This document shows, piece by piece, positions 18,427 to 61,938 of a stretch of 64,000 bases of DNA; position 1 is the first letter of the stretch; every line of letters begins with the position of its first letter. Made by a program: the position numbers and the translations under genes. A model generated the notes under the pieces. It saw only the letters and a list, made by a program, of their open reading frames with translations, was not told the origin of the DNA and did not search any database. This DNA is from Branchiostoma lanceolatum (Eukaryota > Chordata > Leptocardii > Amphioxiformes > Branchiostomatidae), in NCBI RefSeq assembly GCF_035083965.1, contig NC_089724.1, forward strand, positions 16,796,410 through 16,860,409, given 5' to 3'.

Positions 18427-18515
18427 TCACTCCCACCTGCACACCAACATGGCGGTCAGCAGCGCGCCGAACAGGACGTCCATGCACAGGCGACACCTAG
18501 CGGCCACATTTGTAT
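18427..18515 (-). CDS. Gene A last exon: membrane anchor
   Basis: The acceptor gctgttcgcag/ATACA joins in phase 1 to the second CCP exon. The 29 codons read [20 protein letters not shown] then TAMLVCRWE and stop. The hydrophobic run is short for a transmembrane helix, so a marginal TM segment or GPI-like signal are both possible. The gene C copy (29776-29894) has an extended exon start. Confidence 0.75.
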
Positions 18516-21500
18516 CTGCGAACAGCAAGTTGCTAATTAATGAATTAACGAATTGATGAATTAACTATCAATCTACTGTTCTTAATTAATCACATTTTGT
18601 TATGAATACTGATTAATTTCAATAACATGCGCTATCTTACGTGAGCATGTTGGAACAGCGTTACTCCATGTTCCGTCAGATTGGCACATCGTATACAAAG
18701 CGCCGCTTCGCATGTATCCCCGGTTACAGGTGATCGTGACCACGTCATTGGGGGAGTTCGCTCCGGGAGGACTCAGCGCTCCATTCCCTGGTGCCGTCAG
18801 CGTCGGACATGGTACTAAAAAAATTAGATAAATCTTGATCAAGAAAGTTTAAGGGATCTAACATGCAAATAATACATGAAGCGATAATCGTTAGGGAAAT
18901 TCTGTATACTATTTATGCATATGCATTTTACTCCTAGTAGTTTAGTTTCTGACTATTGTAGGTAAATGAATTTTTCCATATTAACATTCATTATTTTCAA
19001 TGCCATCTTACCTGTGCATGTTGGAACAGATCCACTCCATGTTTCGTCAGCCTGGCACGTCACACTAGAGGCTCCGTTCAGTCGGTATCCCGAGTTACAG
19101 GTGAACGTTACCACGTCCTGGTAGGCGTTCGCTCCGGCAGAATCCATCACTCCATTCGCTGGAGCAGTCAGCGACGGACATTGTATTGCTAAAAAGTTCA
19201 ATTGTCTTGGTCAAAAAAGTTGAAAGTCTGCACACTAATACTAGTAATTCATGCAGCGCCGTTCGTTACGGAAGGTCTGTACGACAGGTTTTGAGTAAAA
19301 TGTATTGAAAGAAGGATACATTTTCAACAGTAGTGCAGTATACACACGGCTCCCAACATCCGCTGTGGGTATACGGAAGAAACACATACATTGATTAATG
19401 AACATTATTGATACCCATTTCTCCTATTTCACGCATTGCGCATTTAGAATATACTACTTTGTAAAAAAAGCACAATGTAGCGCCAATACAATGACAGATT
19501 TCTACTAACGTTATATTACATCATATTGAATCTTGTTAATGAGCAATATTTCTGACAAGTGATGGATGGCTTCATTCCAGCTCTTCTTTGATCTGAAATC
19601 GAATCCTCCTCGTTTTGCATGGGATCATCCAAATGGTTCATGTATTTGTATTTGCATTTTCGTGAGGAATTTTTACTTACGCAAGCACCTGTATCGGTGG
19701 TAGTTTTCACTTAAACACTCACAGAACCCGTCGACACAGCTGGCTTCAGTGACATTGGACCAGGAGCAGGACCCTTGGCAGCGGGTTCTTTCTACGGTCG
19801 GGAAAATTCATCAAAATCTGTTAATTTGAAGGTTGCTTTATTGTGCTGTGGATGAATATGAAGACCGAGTAAGTTGGTGTCAATTCAAAGTAGTAAAAGT
19901 TCTGTTTCTGATGTGTTGCCTGTCACGGGAATGTTGTTGGATTCGTATAGATTACGATCGATATCTTTCACCTGTTTTGATGCAGGTAAGGTGTATTCGT
20001 GTGTGTGTGTGTGTGTGTGTGTGCGTGTGTGTGTTTGTGTGTGTGTCTTTTTGTGTTTCCGGACTATTGTAGTCAGCATAACTCAAGAACCTCTTGATGG
20101 ATTACGATGATATTTGGTATGTGGGCGGTTGTTGTGAAGCCGAAATTCAAGGTCAATTTTGGGCCCCCTGGTATGTGACCTTGGTACTGCAGCAGAACTT
20201 CCGTTTTTGTATCTTTTGACCTGGACGTGCTGTGGTTTTGATTTTTGGGTGGCAGGTAGCTTGTGATGTAATAAAGAAGTGGTGTAGGTTTGGGCCCCCT
20301 AGCAGCTTGCTCGGGAACTGCAGTGGCGCCATTGTGAAAATCTTCTAACGAGAATAACTGAACAAAGGGACGATGGATTTCCATGATATTTAGTATGCAG
20401 GTAGCTTAGACAGACATGTACACAATGATGTGCAAATTATGCTAATTGACACTTAATTTGCATAACTAATGAAGAAAATCTATATTTGCAGTGTTTTCCA
20501 TTATAAGACTCAAATACATGTAACATATGTAGTTTATGGCAAGTGGAGCATCAGCAGTTACCAATTATGCAAATAAATTCCTAATTTGCATAATTAATGC
20601 AAAAGTGCCGTAATTCATCCAAGTGGAAAATGATAGGACTGACAATATCTAAGTTGGATGAAGGTGTTTATGACCAAGCATATATTATGTAAATGTGTAT
20701 GTCATTTGCATAAACAAAATGGTTCGTGGAGATATGAGGTCGCGGAACTCTTGTTTAAGATGCAGCAAATATTTCTCACCATCATGACAGGTCCGTCCAT
20801 CCGACCCAAGGGTCCATCTATCCTGACAGGTGCAGGTCCGTCCTCCGCCAGGGACGGGGAGACACAGCTGGGCACAGTTCCCGTTAGACGTCGAGCAAGC
20901 TGTTACCAGAGACGAACAAAGGAATGGAACCATATACGCTTAGTGACATTTTTGCTGAGACTAAGACACGTACTGCAACTTACACAGACATGAAATTCAA
21001 GGCAACGTTCATACGCTGTATATATATCAATTTCCATGTGCACCGACCATTTGGTTGACTTGGAGTATTTGAGGCTGTCCGGACGATGATGCCATGCAGG
21101 CCTTTGAAGTGACTAGCGATGATCTTGTCGTATCCTCGCAGCGACTTGCTGATCCTGCAACCACAAGTTATCTCATCTGTGATCCACGAACATTTATCCA
21201 CTAAGACTCATATGAGTTTCACTGTATGATGACAAAGTGTGTGTTGTACCTGTGAATGCCTGGATCGTTCGTAGCTGTCCAGTACAGATATCTTTCATCC
21301 ACAGCTATCCCGAACAGACTTCAGTCTGTGTGTGTGAAGATCCTCCTAGGGTTGCTGCCAGTCACTCCAGATGTCCAGATCTGGCCACTCCCACCGTTAC
21401 ACCAGTACAGCCGGTTAGCTTCGAGAGGTTTGCAGATAATGTTAGATCAGACAAATCAACTGATGTTAATTGAAAATGATGATAATATTCTTTATTGTAC

Positions 21501-24211
21501 ATTTTTCAGGCTAAGAACAAGCTTACAACTACAGGTATGTGGCTGACATTATGGGATTGGTACATTTATGCACATGTTTTGTACTACTTAACGGAAGTTC
21601 CCGTACTTTCCACAAAGTATCGTTATACTGAATAGCAAAGTTCACAACCGAGTATGTGCACGAGCCAACCAAGTATGGATCGTGTACATACTTGGTTGTG
21701 AATAAAAGAACTTTGCTATTCATTCATTCACCAACCTGATGAAAATGATTACGGAAATAGTTATACTAGTCCTATGTTGAAGAAGCCACACTGACCTGAT
21801 GCGTCCAAAGCCAGTCCATTGGGCCAGTGGCCCTGTCCGATGTTGCCAATAACAGACCTCTGAGTGCCATCCATTCGCGCACGCTCGATCTTGGGTGGGT
21901 TTCCCCAGTCGGTCCAGTACATCCAGCTACATTGGAATGGGTTTTGGAATATCCGTTTACCAATGACAAACATCGTTTTGTTTTCCTCAATAAAGGTGCC
22001 ATAATGGAAAACGACACAATTTCAGGGTTTGTTTTCTTTCACTTAACGCATTTTCAAAATATAATGCCAAAAGTTACTTGTTTGATCGAATGTACCTGTC
22101 ATGTTCGACCACATTTACGGGAAAAACGTTCTATATAATACAGGTCAGTTTATAATCATGAAGATAGGCGTGAATCGGAGGAAAAATGTACATACCCAGA
22201 GTTGGGGTCCACTACGATCGCCCTGGGTTTGTCCAGCCCCTGGGTGATGAGAGACTTCCTGAAGCTGCCGTCCAAGCGGGAGACGGTGATCCGGTCTGTA
22301 CCGGCGTCTGTCCAATACAGGTTCCTGGAAATGACGTCCACTGCAATGCCTTCCGGTTCTGGAATACGTAGAAACGACAGCGGTTGATGTAATAGCACAC
22401 AGGCGATGGTTCGAAATATTTCTTTGAACTTAAAGTTATTATGGAATCGACCGCAATGTATCTCTTTCGTATGAAACCGATACAGCCCAATCGTGTCTTC
22501 CTCTTATCAAGGCATTTCAATAGAATAGTTTCTTGTCTGAACAAATTTGGACAAAAATACGTGTTTATGTATATCTTCTTTGGCTGCTCTGGACTATGTT
22601 TGAATCACATGCACAATACAACAAAGGCAAACTGCTGAACAGAGCGCGAACAACACAACAGCTGCATGTCTTATCATGACTTATAGCATATGAAGAGAAC
22701 AAACAGTTATCAATGGAGGATTTTGGAAGAAAACAAACCTAATGCCTGGTTTCCATCTAGAAATAGTCCTGGTCCAGTCGCGTAGGGAGAACGGGCTACC
22801 AGACTATTCGCCCCGTTAACACTGGTCCAGTAGATAAAATCCTCCTGTAGAAGATTAATAAATACTGTAGTTGAAATAAGGACATTGGCAAATTGACATA
22901 AGCTAAGATAAACAAGTGCTTAAATCTGCTTCAGAACAACAACGAAACAAAATTCAAGGGAGCATGCAGATAAAATATACGTTAGCTAGACGATCTCTAT
23001 CTACGAATGTACGTAAAGAACCCTACCATGTCAACGGGGTGGTTATCATATTGGCAAACTACCTTCATACCGCCAACATTCGCTTTCCCGGGATCCCAGG
23101 GCAACATTAAAGATTATCTGTAAACGCTACTTGGCGAAGTATCTGGTGATCCTGATGGCATATATAATATGGAAACCCGATCCATTTATTAAAAACCTAC
23201 CTTTCTATCATACTCAACAGCTGTTGGCTTATGGGCGCCACCACCAACGCTGTATTGAAGAAACGGATACCAGATGTGACTTGACGTGGTTAAGCGAGTT
23301 ATGGTCCTGTCTCTTGTATCAGCCACTATGATCAGAGTCTGTCCTGGCCGGGGGGCCTTTACTCCTGTAAGTAAGGTAGACAGAACAATCTCTCTCGTCT
23401 CAAACATTTCACGTGATATTCCTCCCAACAAAAACAAAAGCAATGTATGTTCGACATGGTTCATATGTTGTGGCATATATATAGCTGGCGAAGGCGTTTG
23501 GGTGCTTCAATCTAGAAGAACGTTTATACATTGTAGTTTGTACTGTCGCTAAATGTTTGGCAGTGCGTCACGATGTGCAGCAAAACCTTACTTATGGCCT
23601 TGTCTTCGCTGTCCACGGGTTTGCCGAGCTGTAAGGAGTCCATATCACCCTTCTCAACTACTGCTGTATTGACACCCTCAGTAGTTTCAGACGGAGCCTT
23701 GGCGAAATCTCCACTGTCTTTTGCGACAGCTTGATCACCTGAAATGAATTGAGACAATGTAAAGATAAATGACTGTAAGTGGTAATGACGTCAGAACGAA
23801 GTTGGAAATGCGCATTTTCTCGTGTCCTGTTTTCCACTCCACTCGATGTCAAAGAACGTTAACGATCACAGTGTTGTTGTTGTTGTTATTGCTTTAACCA
23901 CTCCAGCTGACCTAATACACTGTCATGCTGATCTAAGTATAGTTCCCGTCAACTTCCTAGATCCAGACTCGGGTCAAACATTTCAAAACAATGAAACATA
24001 CATTTGTTGTATATCGCTTGTCTTAAAAATGATTTACGATAATGTGACGACGTGCACTGTTTCTAAAAGTTAAATGTTTGCATGCTACTTGGAACGTTTC
24101 ATCATAAATCTCTTTGTTAAAAAAATGAGTTATACACTTACATGTACACATCAGGTGGATGGTCACAGCTGCCCACAGCAGCAGCGCGATCCTCCCGCGG
24201 GTCCCCGCCAT
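18427..24211 (-). CDS. Gene A: YWTD propeller-EGF-CCP2 membrane protein, with an in-frame nonsense codon
   Basis: Thirteen coding exons join in frame: 24148-24211, 23592-23738, 23201-23364, 22739-22844, 22196-22358, 21796-21926, 21250-21418, 21048-21154, 20780-20899, 19681-19791, 19012-19188, 18641-18814 and 18427-18515, giving 574 codons. Order of domains: signal peptide ([17 protein letters not shown], residues 1-21), acidic/polar linker (22-70), six-bladed LDLR-class B (YWTD) propeller (71-350), EGF (351-390), Cys-rich module (391-427), two CCP/sushi domains (428-544) and a short hydrophobic anchor ([12 protein letters not shown]) with a tiny tail. LDLR-type propellers followed by EGF bind protein ligands; CCPs are complement-regulator and adhesion modules, so a surface receptor is likely. 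Oddity: codon 291 is TGA (21323-21321) in the fifth propeller exon with correct frame on both sides, so this copy is truncated, polymorphic or a recent pseudogene. An alternative first donor at 24142 also keeps phase. Confidence 0.85.
18641..19188 (-). CDS. Gene A: two CCP (sushi) domains, one exon each
   Basis: Exon 19012-19188 encodes [12 protein letters not shown]... with [20 protein letters not shown] and [10 protein letters not shown]. Exon 18641-18814 encodes [12 protein letters not shown]... with [14 protein letters not shown] and [10 protein letters not shown]. Each has the four Cys and the conserved Trp of the CCP fold. Both exons are symmetric phase 1-1 (177 and 174 nt), the hallmark of shuffled CCP modules. 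Confidence 0.92.
20050..20640 (+). repeat. Dispersed repeat (family of 3.1-3.8 kb)
   Basis: Inside an intron of gene A. Starts at a (TG)n tract (about 19998-20046) and carries ATTTTGGGCCCCCTGGTATG, GAAGATTTTC-type and ACTAATGAAGAAAATCTATA stretches. These match the reverse complement of 3110-3840. Non-coding. Confidence 0.65.
21048..23364 (-). CDS. Gene A: six-exon YWTD propeller
   Basis: Exon lengths 164, 106, 163, 131, 169 and 107 nt equal those of gene B except the fifth (175 in B). Blade motifs: [103 protein letters not shown]. The fifth exon has a 6-nt deletion and the TGA codon described under gene A. Confidence 0.9.
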
Positions 24212-24818
24212 GGTCTGCGTAGCGTGAGTAGGAAAAGAATGTCATTCAATTTGCTCGCAGTACTTTTGAAATTGAAAGTTTGGGTGTCGAAGTGATGGTA
24301 TCGCATGAGATCATTTTTTCAGAGCAAGGGGAGAATAGGAATGCATATGGTACACACAAATAAAGAAATACCAGCAAACATGATACAAAAATGTTCTGGA
24401 TATCAATCTCTACCGAGGTTATGAGTACTGCTGTGAAATACAGATGCTGCCTGCACCCAGTTCAATGTTACCAACGCCATGCCATTCCTGGCAGCACTTG
24501 TCTCTGCTTTGCAGTGTTGTTAGGAACGTTCAAGAAGGAAAATAAATCACACCAATCGAGTTGTCGACAGACAGTATGGCTCTATACAATGCTGATTGTA
24601 TGAAACAAGCAAATCATAAACGAGACGGCATTTTTAGGTTACAGAAAGCAACAATTACACAAATACACAGGGCTAGGGAAAGTCAACTGTTAGTTTACCC
24701 CATATAGTGTCAACATGAGCGCCATAATAAAGTAATCTTTTTTTTAAAAACATGCAATACTGGTGTATGGCACTTGTATTTCCTTAGCATTGGAAAGCTT
24801 CTTATGTTGTAAGCATAC

Positions 24819-25011
24819 CTTCACTTGTTGCCGAGAGTGCTTGATACGGGAATCCTTTCGGCCAACCTCTTGATGTGCCGTATGGTAGACTCGTCGCTTC
24901 TTGTGTGCCTGTGTTCGCGGACGTCCTGTGTATTTCAGTGCCGATGCGAAGCTGTCTGTAGCTTTGTGAATGTTTCTCTGACAAGCGTACTACAACGGTC
25001 GCTCTTTTATA
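24819..25011 (-). promoter_or_regulatory. Gene A promoter and non-coding first exon
   Basis: On the minus strand a TATA box (TATAAAAG, 25011-25004) lies about 30 bp upstream of a probable start near 24975. The presumed 5' UTR exon runs to a donor GTGAAG/gtatgc at 24819 and would splice to the signal-peptide exon (acgctacgcag/ACCATGG). The block is conserved upstream of gene C (32707-32855), including CCGTTGTAGTACGC next to the TATA box and the same donor, which supports function. Confidence 0.6.
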
Positions 25012-25599
25012 CTTTTCTGGGCGAACGAAGATCACGACGTATAGATATTTTTATCTGAATATATGAGATCATAATATGATCTAAATATGGCTAGAGGTGC
25101 CCTACCCTTCTTGCCACTCCCGATCAACGACCCCTACGGTGATTACATGTGCAAATTTGCTATGCCGCAGTTGTACTCAGAGATATGCTTTCACCGTAAT
25201 AAACGGTTTTATCCTGTTTGAAACTATCTGAATAAGTTCTGTGGTGAGTGCAGTCAAAGCTCCACCAGTGACTGCATAAGGACCACTTGTCTCCGTGGCC
25301 ACTTAATGGTACTCGTAATCCTTCTTCCTAGCTACTCCTTCCTGATTATCCTAGACTTAAGAATCCTGTACATAGTGGTCACCTGTCTACTGTGAGCACT
25401 TTCTTCTTTAGTTATCGCCATGTTCAGGTGAATGGAATAAATTCTGCCAATAGTATACAAATAGAGGACATAGCTGATCAATTCATCAGCATATACTCGA
25501 TTTAGCTATATACTGAAGAGTCAATTCAAGAGAGCGACGCACCACTGACAGTGTAGAGGGATTCTATTATAACATGGAAAAAAAAAATTGTCTGGAGAA

Positions 25600-28500
25600 C
25601 TTATTGAAAGTACACAATTGCGTACGATTGCGTAACACAGCTAAACTGATTTTCGACTGGTAGGGCAATATTATCTATTACACCCATTGAACACAGACAG
25701 AAACGGAACTTTCCACCCCATTATTCGGTACTGGGTGGCTCTGTACGTCAGCAGGTTAATTCTGTAGTAGTCCGATAGGTCATGATTACACAGTTCATTA
25801 AACTCATGAACTCCACTGGCCCACAGTAACTGGAACTTTCCACAGTTACGTTCATAACGGGGTGGGTTTGTAGGGCTACATTTGTCCGATCATTAGCGGT
25901 CATCAAACTTCAAAAGTAAGTAAAGATGATTTTGATTTGATTTGATTTGATTGGGATTGTGACGGTACAATACACATAGGACACAAGCAGCTATTGAAGT
26001 TTGTAAGAGAATACCATAAAACTCCATACACACGAGGTGCCATTATTTTACACAACTCTACATCGGAATAGTACATGGAACAAAGCCACAAATGCAGCCT
26101 TACAAGCAATGTCTGTTTTGAGATTTGATATTAGTAGGGTTTTCTTATTAAGCTGCAGACTCTTGATTCTTGATGTAACGTTTTGTCTCATGATTATAAA
26201 ACTATATTTATTTGGTATATGTAGTTTTTGAAGCTCATATTAGTCGTATGTATGCAAGTACATATTTATATTGTGCGTAACACAGTTTAAATGATTTTCG
26301 ACTTGTAGGTCAACATTACTCACTTCATTGACTCTATTGAACACAAACAAAAACGGAATTTTCCACACCATTGTTCAGTGCTGGGTGACGTCAGCACGTT
26401 TAAATCTTGTACTTGCCCGGTTACTGCAGGACAGTGACTGACAATCAATTCGATACAATAGTACAGTAAAACCATGTATGGTTTAAATTGACCACTAAAA
26501 TCGAATTGTCGAGACCGATCATAAACATGTTCCCGGAAGATACACAATTTTGAAACCATTAGATTATTAAATTGAACTATGACAAACCTTGCCTTACACA
26601 TTATTTCAATAGGGAAAGCTATCACACACAGTTGGATACAAATGTGCATGATGAAAATTCACACCAAACCCAGAATTGTTTCCGTACTTTCCCAGTATAT
26701 GGGGTGTTAATCTATAAGTTGCTCTTCTCCCCTGACTTTAATAGTACATGTGACTGTACCGGGCTTTTGTGTATTTGCATACAAGATTACTGTATATTAC
26801 TGCCATTTAGGCAAGACTGCATCTGGTTACAACTAAGAAAACAAATTTATAGTAATTCTTCCCAGAGAATAAAGGGCTTTCAACTCATCCCTGGTTTAAT
26901 AGTAGACTACAAACTAATTATCTTGATTTTAGGAATAAATTTTAAAACACAACCTATTTCATTGGTATTATGTTTGACATGCCACGAAGTATTCATTTGC
27001 CACCTGACAGACACGTTAGAAATCATATATTTGAGTGAATATAGAACCAAATCAAAGATCGTACAGGTGAAGAATACGTCGTGAAATACTGTTTAACTAA
27101 TTGTTTACCTAACTGTTTAACTGTTTAACTAGTAATATACTTTTATATTGGGTAACACATACAAAGATTTTCGACTCGTAGGTCGATATTGCACAATCCA
27201 TTAAACCCATTGATTAAAGATAGAATTCTCCACGCCATTGTTCAGTGCTGGGTGGCTCTGAACGTCAGCAGATCTAAATCTTGTACTTGCCCGGTTACTG
27301 TCGGACAATGGCTGACAAGCAATTAACTGCGTCGGTGCAGTAAATGTATTGTCTACAAAAGCTCATGAAGTTTATCAGCGAAATAAAAACTGATTATCTT
27401 GATACAAACTCTCATTTTAAGAATAAAACAACCTATTTCATTGATATTTGGTTTTACATGCCACGAGGAATCAATTCACTACCAGACACATAAGACAGCA
27501 TAACGTATTCACTAATCATATGTATTTAGAACCAAATCAAAGATCGTACTAGTGAAGAATATATAATACATGTAAAGGGATAGTTTCGTAGTTATGGAAA
27601 AATCACGTCGTGAAATACTGTTTAATTGATATTTTTATTCAAAGTATGACCTACCATTTTCGACTGGTAGGTCAACGATACACACTTCATTTAACCCATT
27701 GATTAAAGACCAAAACGGAATTTTCCACGCCATTGTTTAGTGCTGAGTGGCTCGATCTGTACCTCACCAGATCTAAATATTGTCTTTGACCGGTTACTGT
27801 CGGACGATGGCTGACAAGCAATTAACTGCGTCGGCGCTTTAAACCGTGTATTGTTTAAAACTCTACAGACGCCCACGACAGTCTATTAGTATGTGTCGGG
27901 ACTTATCATAATCACCTACATGGTTCCTGAAGATATATAACTTGAGATTGTTAAACTAAACTATGACAAACCGCTTGCCCTAGATATCCTAGACAGAATT
28001 TTCCACGCCATTGTTCAGTGCTGGATGACTCTGTACCTCACCAGATCTAAACCTTGTACTTGCCCGGTTACTGTCGGACAATGGCTGACAGGCAGCTAAA
28101 TGCGTCGGTACAGTAAACCATCTATTGTTTAAAAATTCTACAGTAGCTCACGAGAGTCTGTTTGTCGGGACCTATCATGATCACCAACATGGTTCGGGAG
28201 GATATACAACTTCGAAACTAGATTATCAAAGTAAAATATGGCAATCCTTGCCGTAAAGATCCTGCAATGTAGGGAACTTTCACACACATTTGGATACACA
28301 CTGTTATTGCACACAATGTCCAAAATTCTTTCCGTACTTTCCCCGGTTTGTAGATGGGGGTGGGGGTGTAATTAAGTTGTACTTCTCTCGTCATTATAAC
28401 GGTATGCACCGAGTGCGCAGTTTTCACAGTGTGCACCAGTGACTGCATCGAGTCTTTGTGTGTTTACGTAATTACACACAACGTTACTGTATAGTACTAC

Positions 28501-28700
28501 CATTTAGGCAAGACTCCATCTGGTTACAAGTAAGAAAAACACATTTTCTAATTTACCCAAAGATAAGCTATCCTCTTTCGGAGCTCTTATCTAATGCATT
28601 TACTGTTTTGATAGTAAAGTACAAACTGAAGGCTGTGATGCAATTTTTTTTTAAGTCAATGTCAATATTAGCGACGTGTCAATTTACCTCCAAACACGTT
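25600..28700 (+). repeat. Cluster of a locally amplified repeat
   Basis: At least five direct copies or partial copies with landmarks TTTTCGACTGGTAGGTCAAT, TTAACCCATTGA, CGGAATTTTCCACACCATTG, GCCCGGTTACTGTCGGACAA and GGCTGACAAGCAATTAACTG. Starts are near 25653, 26290, 27170, 27655 and 27985. Blocks 26580-26850 and 28240-28530 are also duplicates (ACTACCATTTAGGCAAGACT type). No protein family is recognised; the short ATGGCTGAC... reading frames are 11 codons and not conserved. More copies lie at 16.9 kb (inverted) and 33.6-34.8 kb. Confidence 0.75.
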
Positions 28701-28839
28701 GGAAATGATATTAGATAATTTAGGGTAACTGACCGAAAAACGTATCTGATGATGATACGCATTTAGTAGCAAATCAATAAAACGATCGTACTAGACTGAG
28801 TGAAGAATACATGTAAAGGCATTAGCAACATATTTTCGT

Positions 28840-29900
28840 ACTTTTGGAGACACCAATTGCCATTAATTATAACCCGCAAATTTCACCATATTATCACACA
28901 AATATCACACCTTACCCCCTTACAAACCCCATGCGTTTGAGTCCTCATGGACTCTATCTTGTATGTGCACGTTGCCCTATCAAGCACCAGTTCAATGGAC
29001 AATATATTTTTGTCTCATGTATACCAACATCTTTATTAATAAGCAAGAAGAAATATTAAATCATCAGAGCCAAACAAACGCTGGGTTCTCTATAGCATTA
29101 AAGTGATAACTACCGCATACAGCTATTCACAAATGGCAATATTCCAGTAGGGCAACAAAACCGATTCAAAACACATTAATGCGTTCTCGATGCATCTATC
29201 GTTTTCTTACTTTGTGTCATCTATAAAATCTGTGAGGAGCTGGCATCAGGAACCAATACAATACCCTACATGGCCAGTATCTCATTGCAATCACAGAAGT
29301 ACACCAATTCATTGGCTTGGCTTCGTGAATAAGCTAAGGACAAACCTATATACGAAAGTATTCACTGAAAAATACAGCAGATGCAAAATCTAATGTTAGA
29401 TAGCGATGTGATGGTTAAGAACTACAACAATATATCTATTTATAAGTCAATATCTATAGTCAAATAAGACTGAAAATTGGGTACACGTAGTCTATCTATG
29501 ATATTCTTTGGTTTAAAGTCTTCCCTCGTAACGTTACATTTAACACCATTGTTGTCAATCCAAGTGTCAGGTGACAAGTATTGAATTGAAATCCTATCGT
29601 TACATAAATCACGAAACTTGCAAAGACTTAAAAAAAGCAAGCACAATATGGAGCGGTGATAATCTATGCTGAATGTTGGTTGTTTGATATCTTCTCCTTG
29701 GGTCCTCAGTGGGGCGGTGGCTGAAACATGATGATCACACAGGCCACGGCTTCAGCTAAACCCTCCCTCCACGGCTCACTCCCACCTGCACACCAACATG
29801 GCGGTCAGCAGGGCGCCGAACAGGACGTCCATGCACAGGCGACACCTAGCGGCCACATTGGTGTACCTCGCACAAACCTCTGGCGTCTTGACGGCTACGA
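28840..29900. repeat. Segmental duplication partner (with 17240-18530)
   Basis: Parallels 17240-18530 in order, ending in the membrane-anchor exon of gene C. See that entry for shared words. Confidence 0.75.
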
Positions 29901-31169
29901 ACAGGAAGTTGTAAAAGAATGTATAAGTGAACGAAGTTCCCAACAATATACACATTGCACTTGCGATTTCCCATATACACTATGTAGTGTTGCGTGAAGG
30001 GTGGAAATTCTGTCATATGTGATTTTGTTCTTGAGAATTGAATATGCAGCGCAAAGTTGCGATGATACTAGCATCACTTACCGGGATGGGCTCTGTATAG
30101 TGCATACTGATCCGTTCCTGTTGCCAGACACTGGGTGGTTCGGGAGGCATTCTTCACACAGCTGTCCAACTGCTGAAGCAGCCTGTGGTCGACATAAGTA
30201 TGACATAAGTACATGATCAGTAGCTCTCTATCTACACAAAATACTCTCTATCAAGATGCTCACAAACTACATTTTTTCCACTATCCAAGACCAAAGCTTT
30301 ACAAACACATCTCTTGGAGAAATACGCTCGATTTGTCTGTACATGTATAATTGATAACGTGGATTCAGTGACAGCGGCACAGAGATGAGGACGCCCATCC
30401 GTGGGGCGAAGACGGCGTACCGCAAGACCCTCCAAAACGCATTGAACAGTCTCCGTCCCCCGATGATCGCCAGTCAACCGACAGATAGAGCACACTGCAC
30501 TCCAGAGTCCCTAGTTGGTAATACACTACACATGCCACCCTCCCAACTATTCACACTACACATGTCACCCTCCCAACTATTCACACTACACATGCCACCC
30601 TCCCAACTATTCACACACTACAGCATAACCCCTGCTCACAGCTCCTCACACACCACCGTGACTCGTCTTTCCCACTTACTGGCACAGCTGCTTCACGTCT
30701 CTCTCTCCACGGTTCACGGCGTTCTGGGCAGGGACGGCGCACGTGTTTATCATCTCGGTGCACTCTGTTCACGTTTAGTACATGTATATCATTATCTTTG
30801 ATCGCCGTTGGCCATGCCACCTTCTTTCAATAATTTTTTTGCACACACAAATCGGCACTTATGACCACCCAAAACCTGGTTACAAGACCAATGCAATCTA
30901 TTACTGTTCTTACTTAGCAAATCAAGTTAGGGCTGGATAATGAATTCGAAGCTAGTTTTCACAGATGACCACGTGACGACCATCTAATAAACAAATCATT
31001 CTCTGCTTTTATTAAAAATGTAAAGCTGAAACTAATCATCACCATCATCAGTCGACGTAAAGCTGAAACTACTATCAAAATGTAAGAAGAGAAACATACG
31101 CAAAACTTGGCCATGAATGGTCACTGCTCCCACAAGCAGAAGAACGACTCCCTGGTAGGTCCGCATCAT
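29776..31169 (-). CDS. Gene C: short signal-peptide/membrane-anchor relative of genes A and B
   Basis: Exon 31100-31169 starts ATGATG and encodes a signal peptide (RTYQGVVLLLVGAVTIHG) clearly related to those of genes A and B, ending in phase 1 (TTTTGC/gtatgt). Exon 30082-30182 (cgaccacag/GCTGC ... CATCCCG/gtaagt) gives LLQQLDSCVKNASRTTQCLA then TGTDQYALYRAHP. Exon 29776-29894 (ctgttcgtag/CCGTC) continues [39 protein letters not shown] and stop; the G/CC junction keeps frame. A further exon around 30.25-30.51 kb (after gagtgcag at about 30503) may lie between them, but its donor is unclear and I cannot close the frame from the signal-peptide exon. No propeller, EGF or CCP exons are present. 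It may be a truncated paralogue or a small secreted/anchored protein. Confidence 0.5.
30526..30622. repeat. 30-bp minisatellite, three copies
   Basis: Three direct copies of a 30-bp unit containing CACTACACATGCCACCCTCC. Inside or beside the gene C introns. Non-coding. Confidence 0.85.
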
Positions 31170-32580: not shown

Positions 32581-32706
32581 TACACCGTGAAGCGCTGACT
32601 TGGGTGCCAACATGAGTGCCAACTATTCTTTTAAAATACATGATGCAAGATTGCTATGTGATCCTGGTGTTTGCTCAGCATAGGAAAGCTTATGATATAA
32701 GCATAC

Positions 32707-32855
32707 CTTGACTTTTTACCGAGAGCGCTTGATGTTTTTTCGGGAATCCTTTCAGCCAACTTCTTGATGTATCGTATAGTGGACTCGTCGCTTCCTGTGC
32801 GGGCCGGGAACGTCCTGTGTACTGACAGGCGTACTACAACGGTCGCTCTTTTATG
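32707..32855 (-). promoter_or_regulatory. Gene C promoter and first exon (copy of gene A promoter)
   Basis: Homologous to 24819-25011. The TATA box has decayed to CATAAAAG (32855-32848) and the exon ends at the same donor position (GTCAAG/gtatgc, 32707). The exon is shortened by a deletion relative to gene A. Whether it still drives transcription cannot be told from sequence. Confidence 0.5.
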
Positions 32856-33639: not shown

Positions 33640-34633
33640 ATTTGCATTGTACGTAACACAGCTAGAATAATTTTCGACTAGACTGCTTTACAATATTATA
33701 TACTTAATGTGACCCATTGAACTCATCATTGAATACTCTGTTTAACTGATAAAAGTGGTATACTTTTATTTAGGTGACACATACAATGTCAATAATTTTC
33801 GTTTGCTAGGCCGATATTACACACGTCATTTAACCCATTCAACACAGTCAGAATTTTCCACACCATTGTTCAGTGCTGGGTTGCCAGATTTAGATTTAGC
33901 ACTTGCTCGGTTAGTGTCGCACAATGGCTGCTGACAAGCGTCGGTGCAGTAACCATGTGTTTTAAAGTTCTACAGAAGCCCACAAAGTCTATGTGTCGGG
34001 GCCTATCAGCTTGGTCTGGGCAGAGAGTTGTATAATGTAGCACCTGAAGACAATGGAAAAGGCCCGGATGAAAAAATCAGTATGAATGTAACGTATTTAC
34101 TAACCATAACACGTTATGTATTTAAATGTATATATGATACATGTAAAGGAATGGTTTCGTAATGGAAAAATCACGTCGTGAAATGCTGTTTGATTGATGC
34201 TTTTATCTAAGGTAGCATTTTCGACTGGTAGGTCAATATTACACACTTCATTTAACCCATTGATTAAAGACAGAAACGGAATCCTCCACACCATTGTTTA
34301 GTGCTGGGTGGGTCTGTACGTCACCAGATCTAAATCTTGTACTTGCCCGGTTACTGTCGGACAATGGCTGGCAAGCAATTAATTGTATCGGTACAGTAAA
34401 CCATGTATTGTTTCAAATTCCACAGAAGCCAACGGCAGCCTATGTGTCGGAACCTATCATGATCAGCAACGTGGTTCCGGAAGATATACAATTTCGAAAT
34501 TATATCATCAAACTTAACTATGACAAACCTCGCCCTAGAAATCCTACAATATAAGGAGCTGCTGTACAATATCAAACAGTTGGGTACATTCTGAAATTCA
34601 CACAAAACTCATAATTGTTACCGTGACCCCCCC

Positions 34634-34676
<43 letters not shown>

Positions 34677-34815
34677 CGCGCGCGCCTGTCTGGGAATGAA
34701 ATAACTAAGAGGATAACATATTTGATAATGAAATGATTTTCGACTGGTAGGTCAATATTACACACTTCATTAAACACATGCACATTGAACACAGAAACCT
34801 CCTCACCCGTGCAAA
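33640..34815 (+). repeat. Second cluster of the amplified repeat
   Basis: Copies or partial copies start near 33670, 33797, 34217 and 34737 with the landmarks TTTTCGACTGGTAGGTCAAT, ACACTTCATTTAACCCATTG and GCCCGGTTACTGTCGGACAA. The (TG)n/(CG)n tract at 34636-34686 separates two of them. Confidence 0.75.
34636..34686. repeat. (TG)n(CG)n tract, potential Z-DNA
   Basis: About 17 TG dinucleotides run directly into about 9 CG dinucleotides: an alternating purine-pyrimidine stretch with strong Z-forming potential, preceded by a C run. Confidence 0.9.
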
Positions 34816-35970
34816 GTACGATGTCATGGAAAAGACTAATTTGGTAATAGTAATTGAGGAGGGAGTACAAATTCAATCAATAAAAACAACAGACTCATAA
34901 AGGCAGAAGTCTACAATAGTCCCCTTCAGTATGTTTTACTTGAAAGTTGAAACTACCTTAAAAATCAGTAAATAAGAAGCATAATTCATAGAAAACTGTA
35001 GGCTTTAAAGCCAAACAACTACATTACATATCTGACATTACATATTGAGAAAAGCGAAATAACAAAGTCTGAAGACACCCTTGCAAATAATACATGCTTT
35101 TCATCTTATCTAGTCATTGGATATCTAACAATGCCGCCAGCGAACGCTCCGTTGTTGTGGCATATAATTATTTATACTTTTATGTTGTATCTTAATGCCC
35201 ACTTGTTGATACATGTATATATTTAAGATGTTAAAATCATGTTTATAACCATCGCAACCTTTACACTATCACACCATAATGAGAGTAGCAATGTACAAAC
35301 AGGCTCACTAGAGCTGCATTCTAGATATTACTTTTTACCAAAATATCATCTACAACTTTTGTCAGAACTTCGGAGAGGCGCTTTACATGAATCCATTCCA
35401 CTACATGTTGCCCTGATAGATAAAATAACATCTTACTAAAAATTCCTTGAAAAAAATCACCAAGCGTATTTTTCCTATCACCTAATAAGTTTATCTTCTG
35501 TGCCAACTTCTACGAAGTCCGGTTTACAAGATATTAGATATCACATTATTTTACTGTAGACCAACACATGATCTTCCCCATGATTATCATCCGCGATATT
35601 CTAGTTATCAATCAATCTCTTGTGATGATTTTTCGCAGCTTTCGGTCAGGCCATTGTCGAAGTCAGCTCACGGACTTGCGGCTGAAATGTGAAAAAAAAG
35701 CTCACATTATTCCCAATGCACAGCGACTATGTTTGAAAGTCTACTTCCATGACAAAGGTATAGCAACCAAAAGGTAATCAAAGGAATTCAACAGACCTGA
35801 CCTCATTGTTAACGGCGGATTATTCTAGAAGATTATAGAGTAATATAATGTAATATAATGAAAAGTTACTGCAATGGCCAAGTCACCCCAAAACAGATCA
35901 TTCGCCTTGTCAGCAACAAAATGAGCTGTTAGAGACTTGCGCGCGCTACAGCCGACCGAAGATGATGATT
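34816..35970. other. No gene seen
   Basis: AT-rich downstream flank of gene B. It should hold its 3' UTR, but no clear terminator or polyadenylation signal is picked out. Confidence 0.5.
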
Positions 35971-37143: not shown

Positions 37144-40100
37144 CTGGAGGGAAGATAGCATGATATTGTCTATACTGAGCAAGTAAATATCCAAACACTA
37201 CAACTATCAGCATCGATGAAACTGTTCTGTGTATCAAATACACAATGTATCATATCAAGTTAGGACTATCATTCTGAAGAGCAGTTGTCTGGACAAGAGG
37301 ATCGGGCTGCTTGACAAAACTATCACCATTTGTGCGGTTTAATTTCGGTCCTAATGTAAACCAACAGCACGAGGTGTGTGCAACGCTATTCAACGGTACG
37401 CCGATGTTATCGGGATAAACTACACATTCAAATATGGCGGCATGATGAGGATCATCGCTACAGGTAACCGCAAACAGTCGTGCAAACAGTCGACCTGTAA
37501 ATTGAAGATACTTACTCAGTTCACAGTTGACACCTCCGAACCCACTCGGGCATTTGCAGGTGTAGGACAGGCGACCGTCTGTGCACACGCCGCCATTTTG
37601 ACAGGGATTGGGCTCACATTCGTTGGTTTCTGATGGCAAATGACACTAACCAAGTTGTATTTACGATAGAAGATGAACAGAGTAATCAAGAGTGCAGAAA
37701 TCAATAAATTCTGTCAAGCATATCCTATGAAAACATTGGCATGTCGGCAGCAAGAAGCTTCTCAAGATGGCATTGTAATACCAATGGTGCCATAATTGTG
37801 CTTTCTTTTGTTTGATTTCAAGATAAAACATCAGTTGTGATGCCTGCGTCTTTTACATATACTAATCAACTCCTTTACCTTTACCATCAACATCTGAATA
37901 AACACAGTCACGCTACAGGAGCTTTTAGAAGGCTACACCTGACGCACCTGTCTCACAGTTGTCTCCCACATACCCCGGCAGACAGTAACAGGTGTAGGAC
38001 GACGGCCCGTCTATACAGATCCCTCCCTGGTTACAGGTGTCCGGCTCACAACGTTCAACATCTAAAACAGCAAGATGGCAAAATATTACTCACATCGGTG
38101 CCTATAAGTCGGCATGAAATACAATGACATCATGTAAACTTTATAGAACATTAACTTCCAAAAGATTGAGGCATGCATGTCGCATTGCAAAACCAATGTA
38201 TTTAATGAGGGTACAAATGTATATATACACATGACTGTCTGCATACTGTAAGCTCTGATAAAGTCTTACCTGGTGGGGTCGGGGTTGGAGCATCTGTGGG
38301 CGGCTGGAGAGCTGGAACAGAACAATAATGCCGTTATCTTAACTTACTACACGTTTAATGCACTGGATAGGGTTGTCCAAAACAAACGCGACAGGCAACA
38401 GAGTAAGACGTTATCATATATATGATAAATAGAATGTGTATGGAGACAACCAGGATTGACCTGGCGCTACATATATACTAAAGACCAATACTCACGATAC
38501 TCGCAAATATACGTCAGCTGTGAGTTGCACGGCATGGGCTGCCAATGGTACCCGAAGGTTTCGCTCATGCGCACACAGTCTTTCTTTCTGCTGTTCCAAG
38601 TTCCTTCTGCCCACTCGTTAAAAGGATCGCTGACAAGGACATCGTCCACATACCTATAACAACAAGATAATTACAGTTTACAAGCCAAAGTTGGTATTTT
38701 ACAATTTTACAACATAGCTTAAGTTCCTATTTTACCTTTTCAACCATACATTTAATCCAAACTGTTTTGCAACTTTAAAAGGTCCTTACTTCCATACACC
38801 TTCTGTAGTACTATCGTCGATTCCTATCCACGGAGACCCCCCACCGACATGTTGGACATAGTCCATCAGGAATCGGTGCGTGCTCGGCCGCTTCACCACC
38901 GCCAGCTGGCCGTAGACGTCCAAATCAGCGCAGGTCCGGGCAGCTTCGCTATAAGTGGACTGGTCTTCAAGGAGACAGTAGCACTTCCCCTCATGGTGGA
39001 ACCATCCAGATTCACACACTGCAAATTGATGTGCATGAATTATTGAATAGAAGGAAATACAAATTTCGACCAAACAAGTGAAGTCGTAAGAAATAAAAAT
39101 TCAACTTTAATACAGGATCCCGACTTCTAAAATGCGACGCTTACATTAAGCTATAAAACTATCCATTCAAATCTTTTTTGGATAAACATTACATTTAGTC
39201 TAGTAGGTGTTTTATGAAAAATTAAAAGCTATATCTGTAAAGCAAAAACAGGATATCGACGCACCACTGCTTGTACCAGTCGAAGCAAAAGTTGTAGCTG
39301 CAGTCGTCGCGGAAATTTCGCAGCGTTGTCCTAAAAAGCCATCAGGACACACACAGCCGTAAGAGTTGACCCCGTCCACACATCGGCCGCCATTTTGACA
39401 TGGACTGGGTGTGCACACGTCATCTATTTGACAGTTGACTCCACTGAAGCCGGGTGGGCACACACAGGTGTACCGGTTAACCCCGTCTCGACATTGGCCG
39501 CCATTTTGACATGGACTGGAGGCGCACTCGTTGATATAGCTTTGACAGTTGACTCCGCTGAAGCCGGTACCTCGACAATCGCAGGTGTACCTGTTGACTC
39601 CATCGATACATCGGCCGCCATTTTGACATGGACGGGAGGCACACTCGTTGATATTGGTTTGACAGTTGACTCCGCTGAAGCCATCAGGACAATCGCAGGT
39701 GTACCTGTTGACTCCGTCGACACATCGGCCGCCATTTTGACATGGACGGGAGGCGCACTCGTTGATATTGGTTTGACAGTTGACTCCGTTGAAGCCAGCC
39801 GGGCAGACACAGGTGTACCTGTTGACTCCGTCGACACATCGGCCGCCATTTTGACATGGACTGGAGGCACATTCGTTGATATTGGTTTGACAGTTGACTC
39901 CGTTGAAGCCAGCCGGGCAGACACAGGTGTACCTGTTGACTCCGTCATGACATTGGCCGCCATTTTGACATGGACTGGAGGCACATTCGTTGATGTTGAT
40001 TTGACAGTTGACTCCGCTGAAGCCAGCCGGGCAGACACAGGTGTACCGGTTAACCCCGTCTCGACATTGGCCGCCATTTTGACATGGACTGGAGGCACAT

Positions 40101-43100
40101 TCGTTGATGTTTGTTTGACAGTTGACTCCGTTGAAGCCAGCCGGGCAGACACAGGTGTACCTGTTGACTCCGTCGACACATCGGCCGCCATTTTGACATG
40201 GACTGGAGGCGCACTCGTTGATATTGGTTTGACAGTTGACTCCGTTGAAGCCAGCCGGGCAGACACAGGTGTACCTGTTGACTCCGTCATGACATTGGCC
40301 GCCATTTTGACATGGACTGGAGGCACATTCGTTGATATTGGTTTGACAGTTGACTCCGTTGAAGCCAGCCGGGCAGACACAGGTGTACCTGTTGACTCCG
40401 TCACGACATTGGCCTCCATTTTGACATGGACGGGAGGCACATTCGTTGATGTTGATTTGACAGCTGACTCCGCTGAAGCCAGCCTGACAGTCACAGGTGT
40501 AGGAATTGTCCTGACCGATGCACCGGCCGCTATTTTGACATGGGTTGGGCCGACAGGCTGGAATGATATCGATAACGAATCAAATATCCCTCCGGGATTT
40601 AAGATAGTTTCTTCATACATACAGTATGTCTACATGTTTGCACATATGCTGTTTTCCTAACTGTGAGCTCTTGACATGGTCTAGAAATTGAAATGTTTTA
40701 ATCACCTTTCTACATGACCGTACAGCCAAACATTGGACTGCACTTAAGTATAGGCAACAGCACAACCCAATCCCAAAATCTGCGTCCGCCCTACCTGCCT
40801 AGTACTTGGGGTCGTAAGTCTGCAAATTGTATTTTATTTTCTCACATTAATCATTCATATCTATATCAATAAACATTTCTTTACCAGCTGAAATACAGGA
40901 CCGTCCATCCGACCCAAGGCTCCACCCATCCTGACAGGCGCAGGTCCGTCCTCCGCCAGGGACGGGGAGACACAGCTGGGCACAGTTCCCGTTAGACGTC
41001 GAGCAGGCTGAACAAAGACGAACAAAGAAGGGGAACTCTTAATGACCATTGCAATATATAGGGAAACACACCTTCTTGCAGCTAGATACACCTTGAGCAC
41101 GTAAATGAACCCACCACATCTTTCTAAAAACAGTAGGGGCATGCCCCGGTGTGAGTGGATCAAAACATTCCGGCCTAAATGGGGTAGGGAATTTCCCGAG
41201 CAGCCTTTGTAACCCCTGCTTCTCCTAATGGGTCAGTGAGTCATGCTTGTCTCGAGCATTGATGTTTCTAGGGTGAAGAGATGCTGCTATAGTAACAATT
41301 CGTTCAGTGCTTAGATGAGTGCCCGCCCACGGCTTTGCACTGAGCGAGTTCGTTAGAAGAAAAAAAAATACACAACTATCGGGAATTACTGAAAGACAAC
41401 GCCCAATGCGCACTTTCGGTCTTCATCACAAATAACACTGACCATTTGGTCGACTTGGAGTGTTTGAGGTTGTCCTGACGTGGATGTCATTCAGCTTTTG
41501 AAAGTGCGGGATGCTGAGCTTGAGGTATCCTTGCAGCAACTTGCTGATCCTGAACCGAAAAAGGGTCATCATTTGTTATCCAAAACACTTATTCAAACAA
41601 GGTTTGCCGACGTCACACTTCCGTTCAGGTCAGACCACCTGACATGGGCTTCGGGTCAATTCAACTTAAAAGAACCAGAGGACTGATCGTAGGCTTGTTG
41701 GTTAGCGCTTTATTTACTTTGGGTACGGAAAAAGCGTAAAAAATATTTATGTCAACTAACGTCATACTTGGACATTCATTCGCGCAATTCGAATCAAACG
41801 AAGGTTGTTGGAAACTGTTCAAAAATGATAACACGCTCTGTACCTGTGAACGCCTGGTATATTCCACGCTGTCCAGTAGATATAGGTCTCATCCACAGCT
41901 ATCCCGAACAGGTGGGCATTAGCGTGTGTCAATAGCTTAGCGGGGCTTGGGTTGCTGCCAGTCACACCAGAGGTCCAGATCTCGCCAGTACCACCATTGC
42001 ACCAGTACAGTCGGTTTGCTGTGGTACACAATCACATAGAAAATGTTAACTCATCAGAAGTATATATTTCTAAAAGAAAATCCACGCCTAAACGATTTTC
42101 AGATAATGTCAAGTACATAAAAGCAAGGTTCTTTTCACAATCAAGTATTTACAAAGAGCCGACGTTTCGATGACTGTCTGTCATCTTCATCAGAGCAATA
42201 CTGACTGGTTCACAGTGCACTGAAGCTAGGTGTTACTGCTAACAATGCAGTCCCAAACGTAAAGTATTGTTACAATAATAGATACTGCTAAGCAACAATG
42301 GTGAGATGATGCGGTTACTTGATTGTGAATAAAAGAACCTTGCTGTTCAGTCATTCACCAACCTGATGAAATTATCACGAGTGTCAAGAACATTTATGAG
42401 AAATTACAACGTTGCCTTTCATGAATTCATGTAAACGTTTGTGCATCGATTCACTGTCACGAGAGTTAGACCACTTTAACCTAAACATATAAAAAATTAC
42501 CACGGGCATGAAATCATGTTTATATTAACGCTATGTTGCAGAAGTCAGAACTCACTGACCTGCAGCGTCTAAGGCAAGACCGTTTGGCCAGTGACCCTGC
42601 ACGACGTTGACAATGACAGACCTCTGTGTGCCGTCCATCCGGGCACGCTCAATCTTAGACGGGTTTCCCCAGTCGGTCCAGTACATCCAGCTACATGGGA
42701 ATAGTTTTTTTTAGAATTAAGGAATGTATTGTACTTGTACCACTTCATCAGGAATTCGAAAATGATCTATTTTACTTTTGTCGTACGATGCCAATCTCAT
42801 TTGCAGAACGAACGGTCGAACATGGTATGAACAAGAAGTGGTAGTTTCTAATTATATCCGTTGGCATGAATTAGAATCTGATACAGTAAACACTCATCAG
42901 AAGTACATACCCAGAGTTGGGGTCCACTACGATCGCCCTTGGCTCGTCCAGCCCCTGGGTGATGAGAGACTTCCTGAAGCTGCCGTCCAAGCGGGAGACG
43001 GTGATACGGTCTGTTCCGGTGTCTGTCCAGTACAGGTTCCTGGAAATGACGTCCACTGCAATGCCGTCAGGGACTGGAAAACGTAAGTATGGCATCGGTT

Positions 43101-44546: not shown

Positions 44547-44578
<32 letters not shown>

Positions 44579-45672
44579 TCTTTCGGGTTTCCGGATTTAC
44601 ATAAACTTCCTAAAATCAAATATTGCACATATACTAGTGACGAATTCATATCATCCTCATTCTTCCGGATTTCCGAATTTACATAAACTTCCTAGAAATA
44701 GATATTGCATTGTGGGTAATATGTCAAAGTTAAACGCCCCTGAGACGCAAGAATACACCTCTAAATATATATTTAGTATGGTCTAGTCAAGGGCTGTTTA
44801 CAACGTGTGGGCCTTCACCTTTGACATATTACCTACAATACATCTGATTCACACCAGGTAGTCAAAATTTTGTTTTCGATGACGTCACAGCGAATAAGGC
44901 GCCACGTTCTTTTGAGAAGCAAACAAAGAAATTATGATGCACTGTATACTTTTCTAATAAAAACGTCAAAGCCACTTGAAAATCTTACCAGTTGATGAAA
45001 CACCACCGTCCACAGGTTTGCCGAGTTCTAAAGTGTCCACCTCGCCCGTCTCAAAGGCTGCTGGTTTGTTACCCTCGGCAGTGCCGACTGTGCTGTCCGG
45101 ATCCGCTCCATCTGATGCCCCGCCAGAGCTGCCGGGCGCACCTGCTTGGTCTGGTGTTAAGTTCGTGTCGGAATCTGGAGTCTCTTTGGCAGCTGCCTGG
45201 TGGCCTGTGCGGTAACACATGGATTGGTGGGTATCATCGCTGAAACATATCGCCGCGGTGAAACCAGACGGCCTTGCGAACACCCACAATATCGTTGCTG
45301 GTTATGTCCTGCGTCAACTTTTGACGTTAGGAAAATACATCTTATTCATCACCGGTTTGCCAGGCTACTTCGGTTGAACGAAACGCCATTTTGACAATCC
45401 AAAAGTCAATCCGCGGTATATCCTGTATGTCTGGAGAATGTCAATCAATCTTAAAGCTATGACATGCACAGTCCCTCCCCATCACATTACATCGGGGCTA
45501 AATAGCATCTTAACATCCTACCACAGAATTCACCACAGAGTTCAAGATTGTATTATTTTGCATTTAAATCTTTTCACAAGTAACTCAACAACTGTATAAA
45601 GAGAAACGTACATGTCAGCTGGATAGCCACCAGTCCCCAAAGCAGAAGGATGATTCCCCGATGGGTCTGCAT
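35971..45672 (-). CDS. Gene B: YWTD propeller-EGF(12)-CTLD-EGF(2)-CTLD protein
   Basis: Seventeen coding exons join in frame to 1202 codons plus stop: 45612-45672, 44989-45204, 44007-44170, 43570-43675, 42911-43073, 42560-42690, 41844-42018, 41443-41549, 40885-41007, 39265-40557, 38790-39018, 38496-38653, 38270-38311, 37948-38061, 37516-37629, 36963-37143 and 35971-36202. Domains: signal peptide ([16 protein letters not shown], 1-20), Ser/Gly/Asp-rich linker (21-92), six-bladed YWTD propeller (93-374), EGF (375-415), 11 EGF repeats in one exon (416-846), C-type lectin domain 1 (847-975), Pro/Thr linker (976-989), EGF 990-1027, EGF 1028-1065, lectin domain 2 (1066-1202). No membrane anchor is seen, so it is probably secreted. 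If the donor AGAAAG/gtgggc at 36000 is used instead, further exons could follow. LDLR-type propellers bind proteins and CTLDs often bind glycans, so a recognition or bridging role is inferred. The combination is not one I recognise from vertebrates. Confidence 0.88.
37516..38061 (-). CDS. Gene B: two single-exon EGF modules
   Basis: Two exons of exactly 114 nt, each phase 1-1. Exon 37948-38061: [20 protein letters not shown] then [16 protein letters not shown]. Exon 37516-37629: [20 protein letters not shown] then [16 protein letters not shown]. Each shows six Cys in EGF spacing. Confidence 0.93.
38496..39018 (-). CDS. Gene B: C-type lectin domain 1
   Basis: Exon 38790-39018 ([20 protein letters not shown] ... 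[16 protein letters not shown]) and exon 38496-38653 ([20 protein letters not shown] ... [11 protein letters not shown]). The WIGI box, the WxSxxxDCVxM motif and the terminal YICE motif are typical. The two-exon split is the same as in domain 2, but sequence identity between the domains is low, so this is not a recent duplication. Confidence 0.92.
39265..40557 (-). repeat. Single exon coding 11 tandem EGF repeats (114-bp units)
   Basis: One 1293-nt exon (tcattccag/CCTGTC ... AGCAGTG/gtgcgt). Units read [20 protein letters not shown] then [18 protein letters not shown], with 11 six-Cys repeats and a Thr/Ser-rich end ([15 protein letters not shown]). The middle units are almost identical at the nucleotide level, implying recent unequal exchange or gene conversion. 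Because the unit is 38 codons, other frames are also open over most of the exon; only the Cys-preserving frame is real. Confidence 0.95.
40885..41007 (-). CDS. Gene B: EGF after the propeller
   Basis: [20 protein letters not shown] then [17 protein letters not shown], the EGF that usually packs against the YWTD propeller in LDLR relatives. Nearly identical to the gene A exon 20780-20899 except for a few codons. Confidence 0.92.
41443..44170 (-). CDS. Gene B: six-exon YWTD propeller
   Basis: Blade motifs: [107 protein letters not shown]. Exon phases match gene A exactly. The frame is open throughout. Confidence 0.93.
43206..43333. repeat. Small inverted-terminal-repeat element (MITE-like)
   Basis: 128 bp bounded by CTGTAAATGCA and TGCATTTACAG, with internal GTTCGCGG/CCGCGAAC symmetry. 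It is intronic to gene B. The target-site duplication is unclear (TATAC/GTATAC flanks). Confidence 0.6.
44330..44460 (-). mobile_element. LINE 3' end only, with (ATTC)n tail
   Basis: The reverse complement reads AATTCAGCCTACTGGCTGCG ... CAAATAAACCATTCATTCATT. This matches the 3' end of the 50.2-52.6 kb LINE (AATTCAGCCGAATTGGCTGC ... AATAAACCATTCATCATC). It is an extreme 5'-truncated insertion in a gene B intron. Confidence 0.7.
44709..44839. repeat. 131-bp inverted-repeat element
   Basis: The ends ATTGTGGGTAATATGTCAAA and TTTGACATATTACCTACAAT are inverted copies (one mismatch over 21 bp), with unrelated interior. Intronic to gene B; MITE-like. Confidence 0.65.
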
Positions 45673-61912: not shown

Positions 61913-61938
61913 TGTTGTCCTTTTGTGAGTGACAAGGT

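Follow-up and report, generated by a model that had tools for sequence, protein, structure and literature searches.

A tandem cluster of mosaic genes with a common YWTD-propeller front end and different back ends in the lancelet Branchiostoma lanceolatum

We analyzed a 64,000-nucleotide (nt) stretch of the lancelet Branchiostoma lanceolatum (RefSeq assembly GCF_035083965.1, contig NC_089724.1, positions 16,796,410 to 16,860,409; hereafter the window, numbered from its first base), which holds a cluster of four related members, namely genes A, B and C and a fragment, D. Genes B, C and A follow in this order on one strand. D falls beyond the range covered by an earlier reading of this DNA made from its letters alone (hereafter the sequence-only reading), which had described a family of receptors with one front end and exchangeable back ends and was largely right about the anatomy of the cluster. 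The exon models and alignments described below support a tandem family with a common front end, replaced back ends and phase-1 boundaries.

Organization of the cluster

Exon models of genes A and B were drawn from the genomic sequence alone. Gene A (24211-18427, minus strand) was modelled with 13 exons and gene B (45672-36000, minus strand) with 17. All modelled introns are GT-AG (12/12 in gene A and 16/16 in gene B); because the borders were picked by hand for GT-AG and reading frame, these counts indicate consistency and are not an independent test. The features are as follows, from exon models unless another source is given.

Gene A
24739-25157, minus: upstream block with a TATA-like box and a possible 5'-untranslated region (5'-UTR) exon with donor, common to gene C (73% over 429 columns to 32626-33001)
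24142-24211, minus: exon 1, leader
23592-23738, minus: exon 2, linker, 147 nt, phase 1-1
23364-23201, 22844-22739, 22358-22196, 21926-21796, 21418-21250 and 21154-21048, minus: exons 3-8, YWTD propeller (also Pfam)
21321-21323, minus: premature TGA in exon 7, codon 293 of the model (sequence and A/B alignment)
20780-20899, minus: exon 9, EGF (also Pfam FXa_inhibition)
19681-19791, minus: exon 10, Cys-rich module, without Pfam match
19188-19012 and 18814-18641, minus: exons 11-12, two CCP/Sushi domains (also Pfam)
18427-18515, minus: exon 13, hydrophobic anchor and stop

Gene C
32626-33001, minus: upstream block resembling that of gene A (alignment)
31100-31169, minus: leader exon, 70 nt (alignment)
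29776-29894, minus: anchor exon and stop, with 86/89 of the last 89 nt identical to the gene A anchor exon (tblastn, alignment)

Gene B
45612-45672, minus: exon 1, leader
44989-45204, minus: exon 2, linker, 216 nt, phase 1-1
44170-44007, 43675-43570, 43073-42911, 42690-42560, 42018-41844 and 41549-41443, minus: exons 3-8, YWTD propeller (also Pfam and PDB matches)
40885-41007, minus: exon 9, EGF (also Pfam)
39265-40557, minus: exon 10, 11 EGF units in a single 1293-nt exon, a 114-nt tandem array (also repeat analysis)
39018-38790 and 38653-38496, minus: exons 11-12, C-type lectin domain (CTLD) 1 (also Pfam)
38311-38270, 38061-37948 and 37629-37516, minus: exons 13-15, a 42-nt linker and two EGF exons
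37143-36963 and 36202-36000, minus: exons 16-17, CTLD2 (also Pfam), with the model left open at 36000

D
14896-15076 and 15298-15480, plus: inverted, frame-broken copy of gene B CTLD2 (alignment)

Genes A and B share their front ends and differ in their back ends

The lengths of exons 1-9 in genes A and B are 70/61, 147/216, 164/164, 106/106, 163/163, 131/131, 169/175, 107/107 and 120/123 nt, and their phases are equal throughout. Five of the seven propeller and EGF exons match in length, the exceptions being exon 7, with a 6-nt difference, and exon 9, with one of 3 nt. Pfam identified Ldl_recept_b, FXa_inhibition and Sushi in gene A, and Ldl_recept_b, FXa_inhibition, EGF and Lectin_C in gene B. 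Further, the propeller and EGF matched single-propeller PDB chains beyond chance (LRP6, E 1.4e-55; LRP4, E 5.7e-51), and LRP2, LRP4 and LRP6 were the closest solved structures for this part of gene B. The predicted domain folds are settled by homology. The exon models bear out the common leader, linker, six-exon YWTD propeller and EGF, with identical phases, that the sequence-only reading had described, and Pfam confirms the modules.

That reading also held that the two genes diverge completely past the EGF. We detected no A/B similarity within the genes 3' of the shared EGF exon by blastn or tblastn, and the last intragenic blastn match in transcript order was the EGF exon itself. Five more A/B blastn matches, upstream of A and downstream of B, were dispersed repeats. 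A tblastn search with A and B (E <= 1, matches in their own loci left out) gave four matches, the anchor of gene C and three in the lectin copy D (14.9-15.5 kb), and no further relatives beyond the loci of these two genes.

The symmetric 1-1 exons of genes A and B measure 147, 216, 111, 177, 174, 42, 114 and 114 nt; the phase-1 inter-domain introns and symmetric domain exons are as claimed earlier. The list of back-end modules stood for gene A (Cys-rich module, two CCPs and anchor) and for the two CTLDs of gene B. The count of 12 EGFs in gene B did not: we counted 13 beyond the shared one, 11 in exon 10 and 2 later, and Pfam PF00008 gave 13 stretches. The Cys-rich module of gene A exon 10 had no Pfam match up to E 0.1, and we take its cysteine spacing to be reminiscent of EB modules. 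CCP1 and CCP2 of gene A differ by a nonsynonymous divergence (dN) of 0.335 and a synonymous divergence (dS) of 0.232.

Two noncoding sequences lie within this region. In intron 9 of gene A, 20003-20502 has a repeat in common with 3182-3829 (75-82% identity). The repeat sits where the A/B resemblance ends, and may have aided recombination or be a coincidence. In intron 6, genes A (21689-21744) and B (42316-42371) have a 56-nt stretch that is 93% identical; the A copy adjoins an inverted repeat by eye, and the stretch is perhaps a small mobile element.

Gene A contains a premature stop codon

Exon 7 of gene A contains an in-frame TGA (21323-21321), which the sequence-only reading had overlooked. 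The TGA removes the last propeller blades, the EGF, the CCPs and the anchor, so gene A as written cannot yield the protein described for it. The exon is 169 nt long as against 175 nt in gene B, and the gene A frame is therefore otherwise kept. The gene B codon aligned to the TGA is GCC, although the alignment is gapped nearby and does not give the ancestral codon of gene A. Because the aligned codon is GCC, a single miscalled base is unlikely to be the cause of the TGA. Judging from the exon models, skipping exon 7 alone would shift the frame, and skipping exons 7 and 8 together (276 nt) would keep it and lose part of the propeller.

Amino-acid changes between A and B were in excess in exons 8-9 compared with exons 3-6 (Fisher p 0.006, rounded counts). 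This excess, which cannot be polarised, would fit relaxed constraint behind the stop.

Gene C and fragment D are reduced copies

Gene C had been described as keeping only a promoter, a leader and an anchor, and the alignments to gene A bear this out. The upstream block includes the TATA-like box and the possible 5'-UTR exon, and the block of anchor and 3'-UTR is 86.7% identical over 293 columns. The leader exon joins the anchor exon in frame to encode 62 amino acids. Genes A and C both end in ...MLVCRWE directly past the hydrophobic stretch. A search for hidden domains in gene C, covering eight pieces of the 43 minus-strand frames in 24300-35950, gave one Pfam match, with E 0.81, which we discounted.

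A local blastn match had pointed to a B-like origin of the gene C leader. We rejected this candidate, as gapped global alignment hardly separates the three pairs (A/C 49/63, A/B 45/59 and B/C 42/61). Between the upstream block and the leader of gene C sits a 228-nt inverted repeat (32354-32581), which aligns with its own reverse complement at 80% identity over 247 columns and resembles a miniature inverted-repeat transposable element.

The first exon of D is identical to gene B exon 16 at 178/181 positions (98%). Its second exon has 183 nt compared with 203 nt in gene B, and the frame is lost.

Gene B is apparently the only intact member

EGF units 2-10 of gene B have 82-100% DNA identity. The two Lectin_C stretches were found by Pfam with E 1.8e-29, and PDB matches to C-type lectins were also obtained. 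In C-type lectins, the EPN/QPD and WND motifs mark calcium-dependent sugar binding and define the sugar-binding members. CTLD1 has TWN and WQP at the positions of EPN and WND in the Mincle and aggrecan rows of the alignment, and CTLD2 lacks the EPN/QPD and WND motifs, its second site being WLYWNC. Because the usual calcium and sugar motifs are missing, the gene B CTLDs probably bind proteins rather than sugars.

The nearest AATAAA/ATTAAA lies 2.2 kb past the last modelled exon. We looked for a terminal anchor exon within 36000-32001, and none of five weak hydrophobic candidates was convincing. The product may be secreted, or anchored via an overlooked exon. Gene B appears to be the sole intact member of the four, and only B could act as modelled because A has the stop, C has no recognisable domain and D is frame-broken.

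Synonymous divergence jumps between neighboring exons

The A/B dS values of exons 3-9 are 0.84, 0.71, 0.17, 1.17, 0.58, 0.24 and 0.09. This spread was significant (chi2 33.3, 6 degrees of freedom, p 9e-6, from estimated counts), and it was also significant when 126 four-fold sites were permuted (p 5e-5). Four-fold differences in the same exons were 6/15, 9/15, 4/28, 11/16, 7/22, 0/9 and 1/21. In exons 5 and 6, dN is similar (0.038 and 0.052) and dS is sevenfold apart; thus, protein constraint fails to explain the gap.

A comparable contrast was observed between gene B and D. Their dS is 0.05 in exon 16 (2/41 sites) and rises to 0.47 over the initial 90 nt of exon 17 (7.5/21.5; Fisher p 0.002 for the contrast, rounded counts). 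Around exon 16, similarity fell to near chance within about 40 nt on the upstream side and 10 nt on the downstream side, and the flanks of A/B exons 5 and 9 reached near-chance similarity within 20-40 nt. When flanks were compared with 40 random window pairs per test, most were inside the random range. Gapped global alignment placed the B exon 16/D flanks at 66-82%, which we rejected as a contradiction, as random window pairs also gave about 66% with the same scoring. The uneven dS together with near-chance flanks fits exon-sized gene conversion between members.

Other features of the window

On the minus strand, 61046-62119 holds a 358-amino-acid frame with a zf-tcix zinc finger, which we take to be similar to C2orf42. 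A 732-amino-acid frame with a reverse transcriptase domain (50148-52343, plus strand) probably belongs to a long interspersed nuclear element (LINE)-type element. An approximately 1.4-kb tandem duplication with 96% identity lies at 52954-55733, and two adjoining 630-nt copies with 100% identity (12387-13644) overlap minus-strand reading frames. A 27-nt tandem repeat of about 24 copies (6577-7220) lies within the 4-kb block where the GC content of the window is highest. Rfam and ARAGORN tRNA scans gave 0 matches.

Discussion

We consider it rather probable, from the sequence of the cluster, that these mosaic genes for extracellular proteins form a small tandem family in birth and death, with exon-sized ectopic gene conversion. 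The ancestral gene would have consisted of leader, linker, LRP-type YWTD propeller and EGF. It was presumably duplicated along with its introns, because exons and phases are colinear and the introns retain slight similarity beside exon 6. The back ends would then have been swapped at phase-1 introns past the EGF exon, as the loss of A/B similarity there suggests. The product of gene B may use the propeller as a ligand-binding head on an EGF stalk with two C-type-lectin-fold domains, and its EGF array was probably homogenised by unequal exchange, to judge from the identity of the units. Gene A, interrupted by its nonsense codon, would be a decaying copy, gene C a deletion derivative and D an inverted remnant of a lectin end. 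Ectopic conversion between members may have overwritten exon-sized patches, which would explain why neighboring exons differ so strongly in synonymous divergence.

Several observations weigh against this explanation. Slight flank similarity was found upstream of B exon 16 and the first exon of D (1/40 random pairs as good), downstream of A/B exon 5 (1/40 by score) and downstream of exon 9 (1/40 by mafft identity and 17/40 by score), and it was clearest downstream of A/B exon 6 (0/40 by score). The longest-run test gave only p 0.014, with few sites. Exon 8 is ambiguous, with a dS of 0.24 and four-fold differences of 0/9 but 77% identity. There is one sequence per gene, and conversions cannot be polarised. 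All other exons of gene A are open, so that its loss would be recent, or the TGA an allele or a sequence error. The 3' end of gene B is open at 36000, where read-through reaches a stop near 35971. Further, the high-identity patches stop near exon borders, which synonymous-site selection would also produce, and in both genes exon 5 exceeds all others from exon 3 to exon 9 in GC content at third codon positions (GC3; 0.76 and 0.78), so that codon bias could lower its dS. Our confidence is reduced because of the slight flank similarity and the exon 5 GC3.

A bolder form of the same idea is tentative, and we rather doubt it: domain exons would have been overwritten repeatedly between paralogs, even where these are inverted and lie about 22 kb from each other, with introns that have lost nearly all similarity, so that the exon is the unit of conversion and broken genes serve as donors or recipients. 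Conversely, the exon borders and the GC3 of exon 5 speak for a reading without any gene conversion, in which selection on synonymous sites in some exons (splicing enhancers or codon bias) makes dS uneven. We consider this unlikely. The GC3 of exon 9 (0.60 and 0.63) is not unusual, yet its dS is 0.09; exon 6 reaches 1.17 despite a dN similar to that of exon 5; and D, which is broken and without expected constraint, repeats the contrast between adjacent exons.

The sequence-only reading had gone beyond anatomy and proposed a receptor family whose exchangeable ligand-binding ends would suit diversifying recognition, as in innate immunity. The different back ends on a common front end at phase-1 borders are in its favor, as are the lectin, Sushi and EGF modules and the place of lancelet C-type lectins among fast-evolving receptors (PMC4284660). 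However, gene A has a premature stop, C and D are broken or empty, and the gene B CTLDs lack the usual calcium and sugar motifs; the sequence itself holds no sign of exchange among transcripts or individuals. The claim found no support here, and a working family of this kind is improbable. To a similar degree we think it improbable that gene A or B joins exons of separate genes, making the mosaic partly illusory. A published warning holds that lancelet architectures are often mispredicted, and differences in architecture between lancelet species have been attributed to gene-prediction errors (PMC4967905); the gene B model is also open at its 3' end. However, in both genes a phase-1 chain runs without a break from the EGF exon to the back end, all on one strand, the introns there span only 0.3-1 kb, and we noticed no start-like leader between the EGF exon and the back ends, although no systematic search was made. 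Combinatorial splicing, in which read-through would join exon 9 of B, which ends in phase 1, to exon 10 of A, which begins in phase 1, and so provide several back ends and bypass the gene A stop, accords with the B-C-A order on one strand, the matching phases and the 2.2 kb without AATAAA/ATTAAA, but is very improbable given that C and A have their own TATA-like blocks and leaders and that the distance is about 21 kb.

With tandem birth and death as the preferred explanation, the cluster illustrates well how shuffling, decay and, probably, conversion shape a tandem family in nature. A common front end, back ends that were replaced, a copy with a premature stop and identity patches of exon size make the locus a compact test case for how single exons move or get overwritten. 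It also calls for caution, since in clusters of this kind an unusual domain architecture may be that of a broken gene.

Among known systems, the LDLR/LRP family (LRP6, LRP4 and LRP2) has a YWTD propeller followed by one EGF, as in genes A and B. The back ends differ, being CCP or EGF/CTLD here. LDLR/LRP receptors have a transmembrane segment and a cytoplasmic endocytosis motif, whereas A and C are without a long cytoplasmic tail. Pfam matches (E up to 0.1) to the models of A and of B, the latter as far as its modelled end, included no Ldl_recept_a (LDL-receptor class A repeat). Selectins, lecticans and group XIV C-type lectins combine EGF, CTLD and Sushi; the cluster has the same module types, but with CTLD and Sushi on different genes. 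To our knowledge, these proteins have no YWTD propeller. We recognised no description of YWTD-EGF joined to CTLD or CCP in the literature searched, judged by title or abstract start, which is weak evidence of absence. As to the claim that the cluster has no described counterpart, the exact domain order may be new; fast shuffling of 1-1 phase exons in lancelets, however, is published (PMC4284660).

That study reports the fastest exon shuffling in metazoans and a 1-1 phase bias for lancelets. Its genes have 1-1 domain exons, new domain combinations and turnover in common with the cluster; it is genome-wide, whereas the present analysis resolves a single locus to the base, which includes a copy with a premature stop and identity patches the size of exons. 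How extreme lancelet exon shuffling is remains disputed (PMC4284660 versus PMC4967905). A lancelet pangenome study reports that some defence genes are dispensable, and C-type lectin domains come up in it once (PMC12373286). The sea urchin 185/333 genes (PMC1988830) are likewise a tandem invertebrate family with many related versions, but that family is large and immune-related, whereas the present cluster has four members, three of them broken or empty. Compared with these systems, what is new here is the jumps in synonymous divergence between neighboring exons with near-chance flanks.

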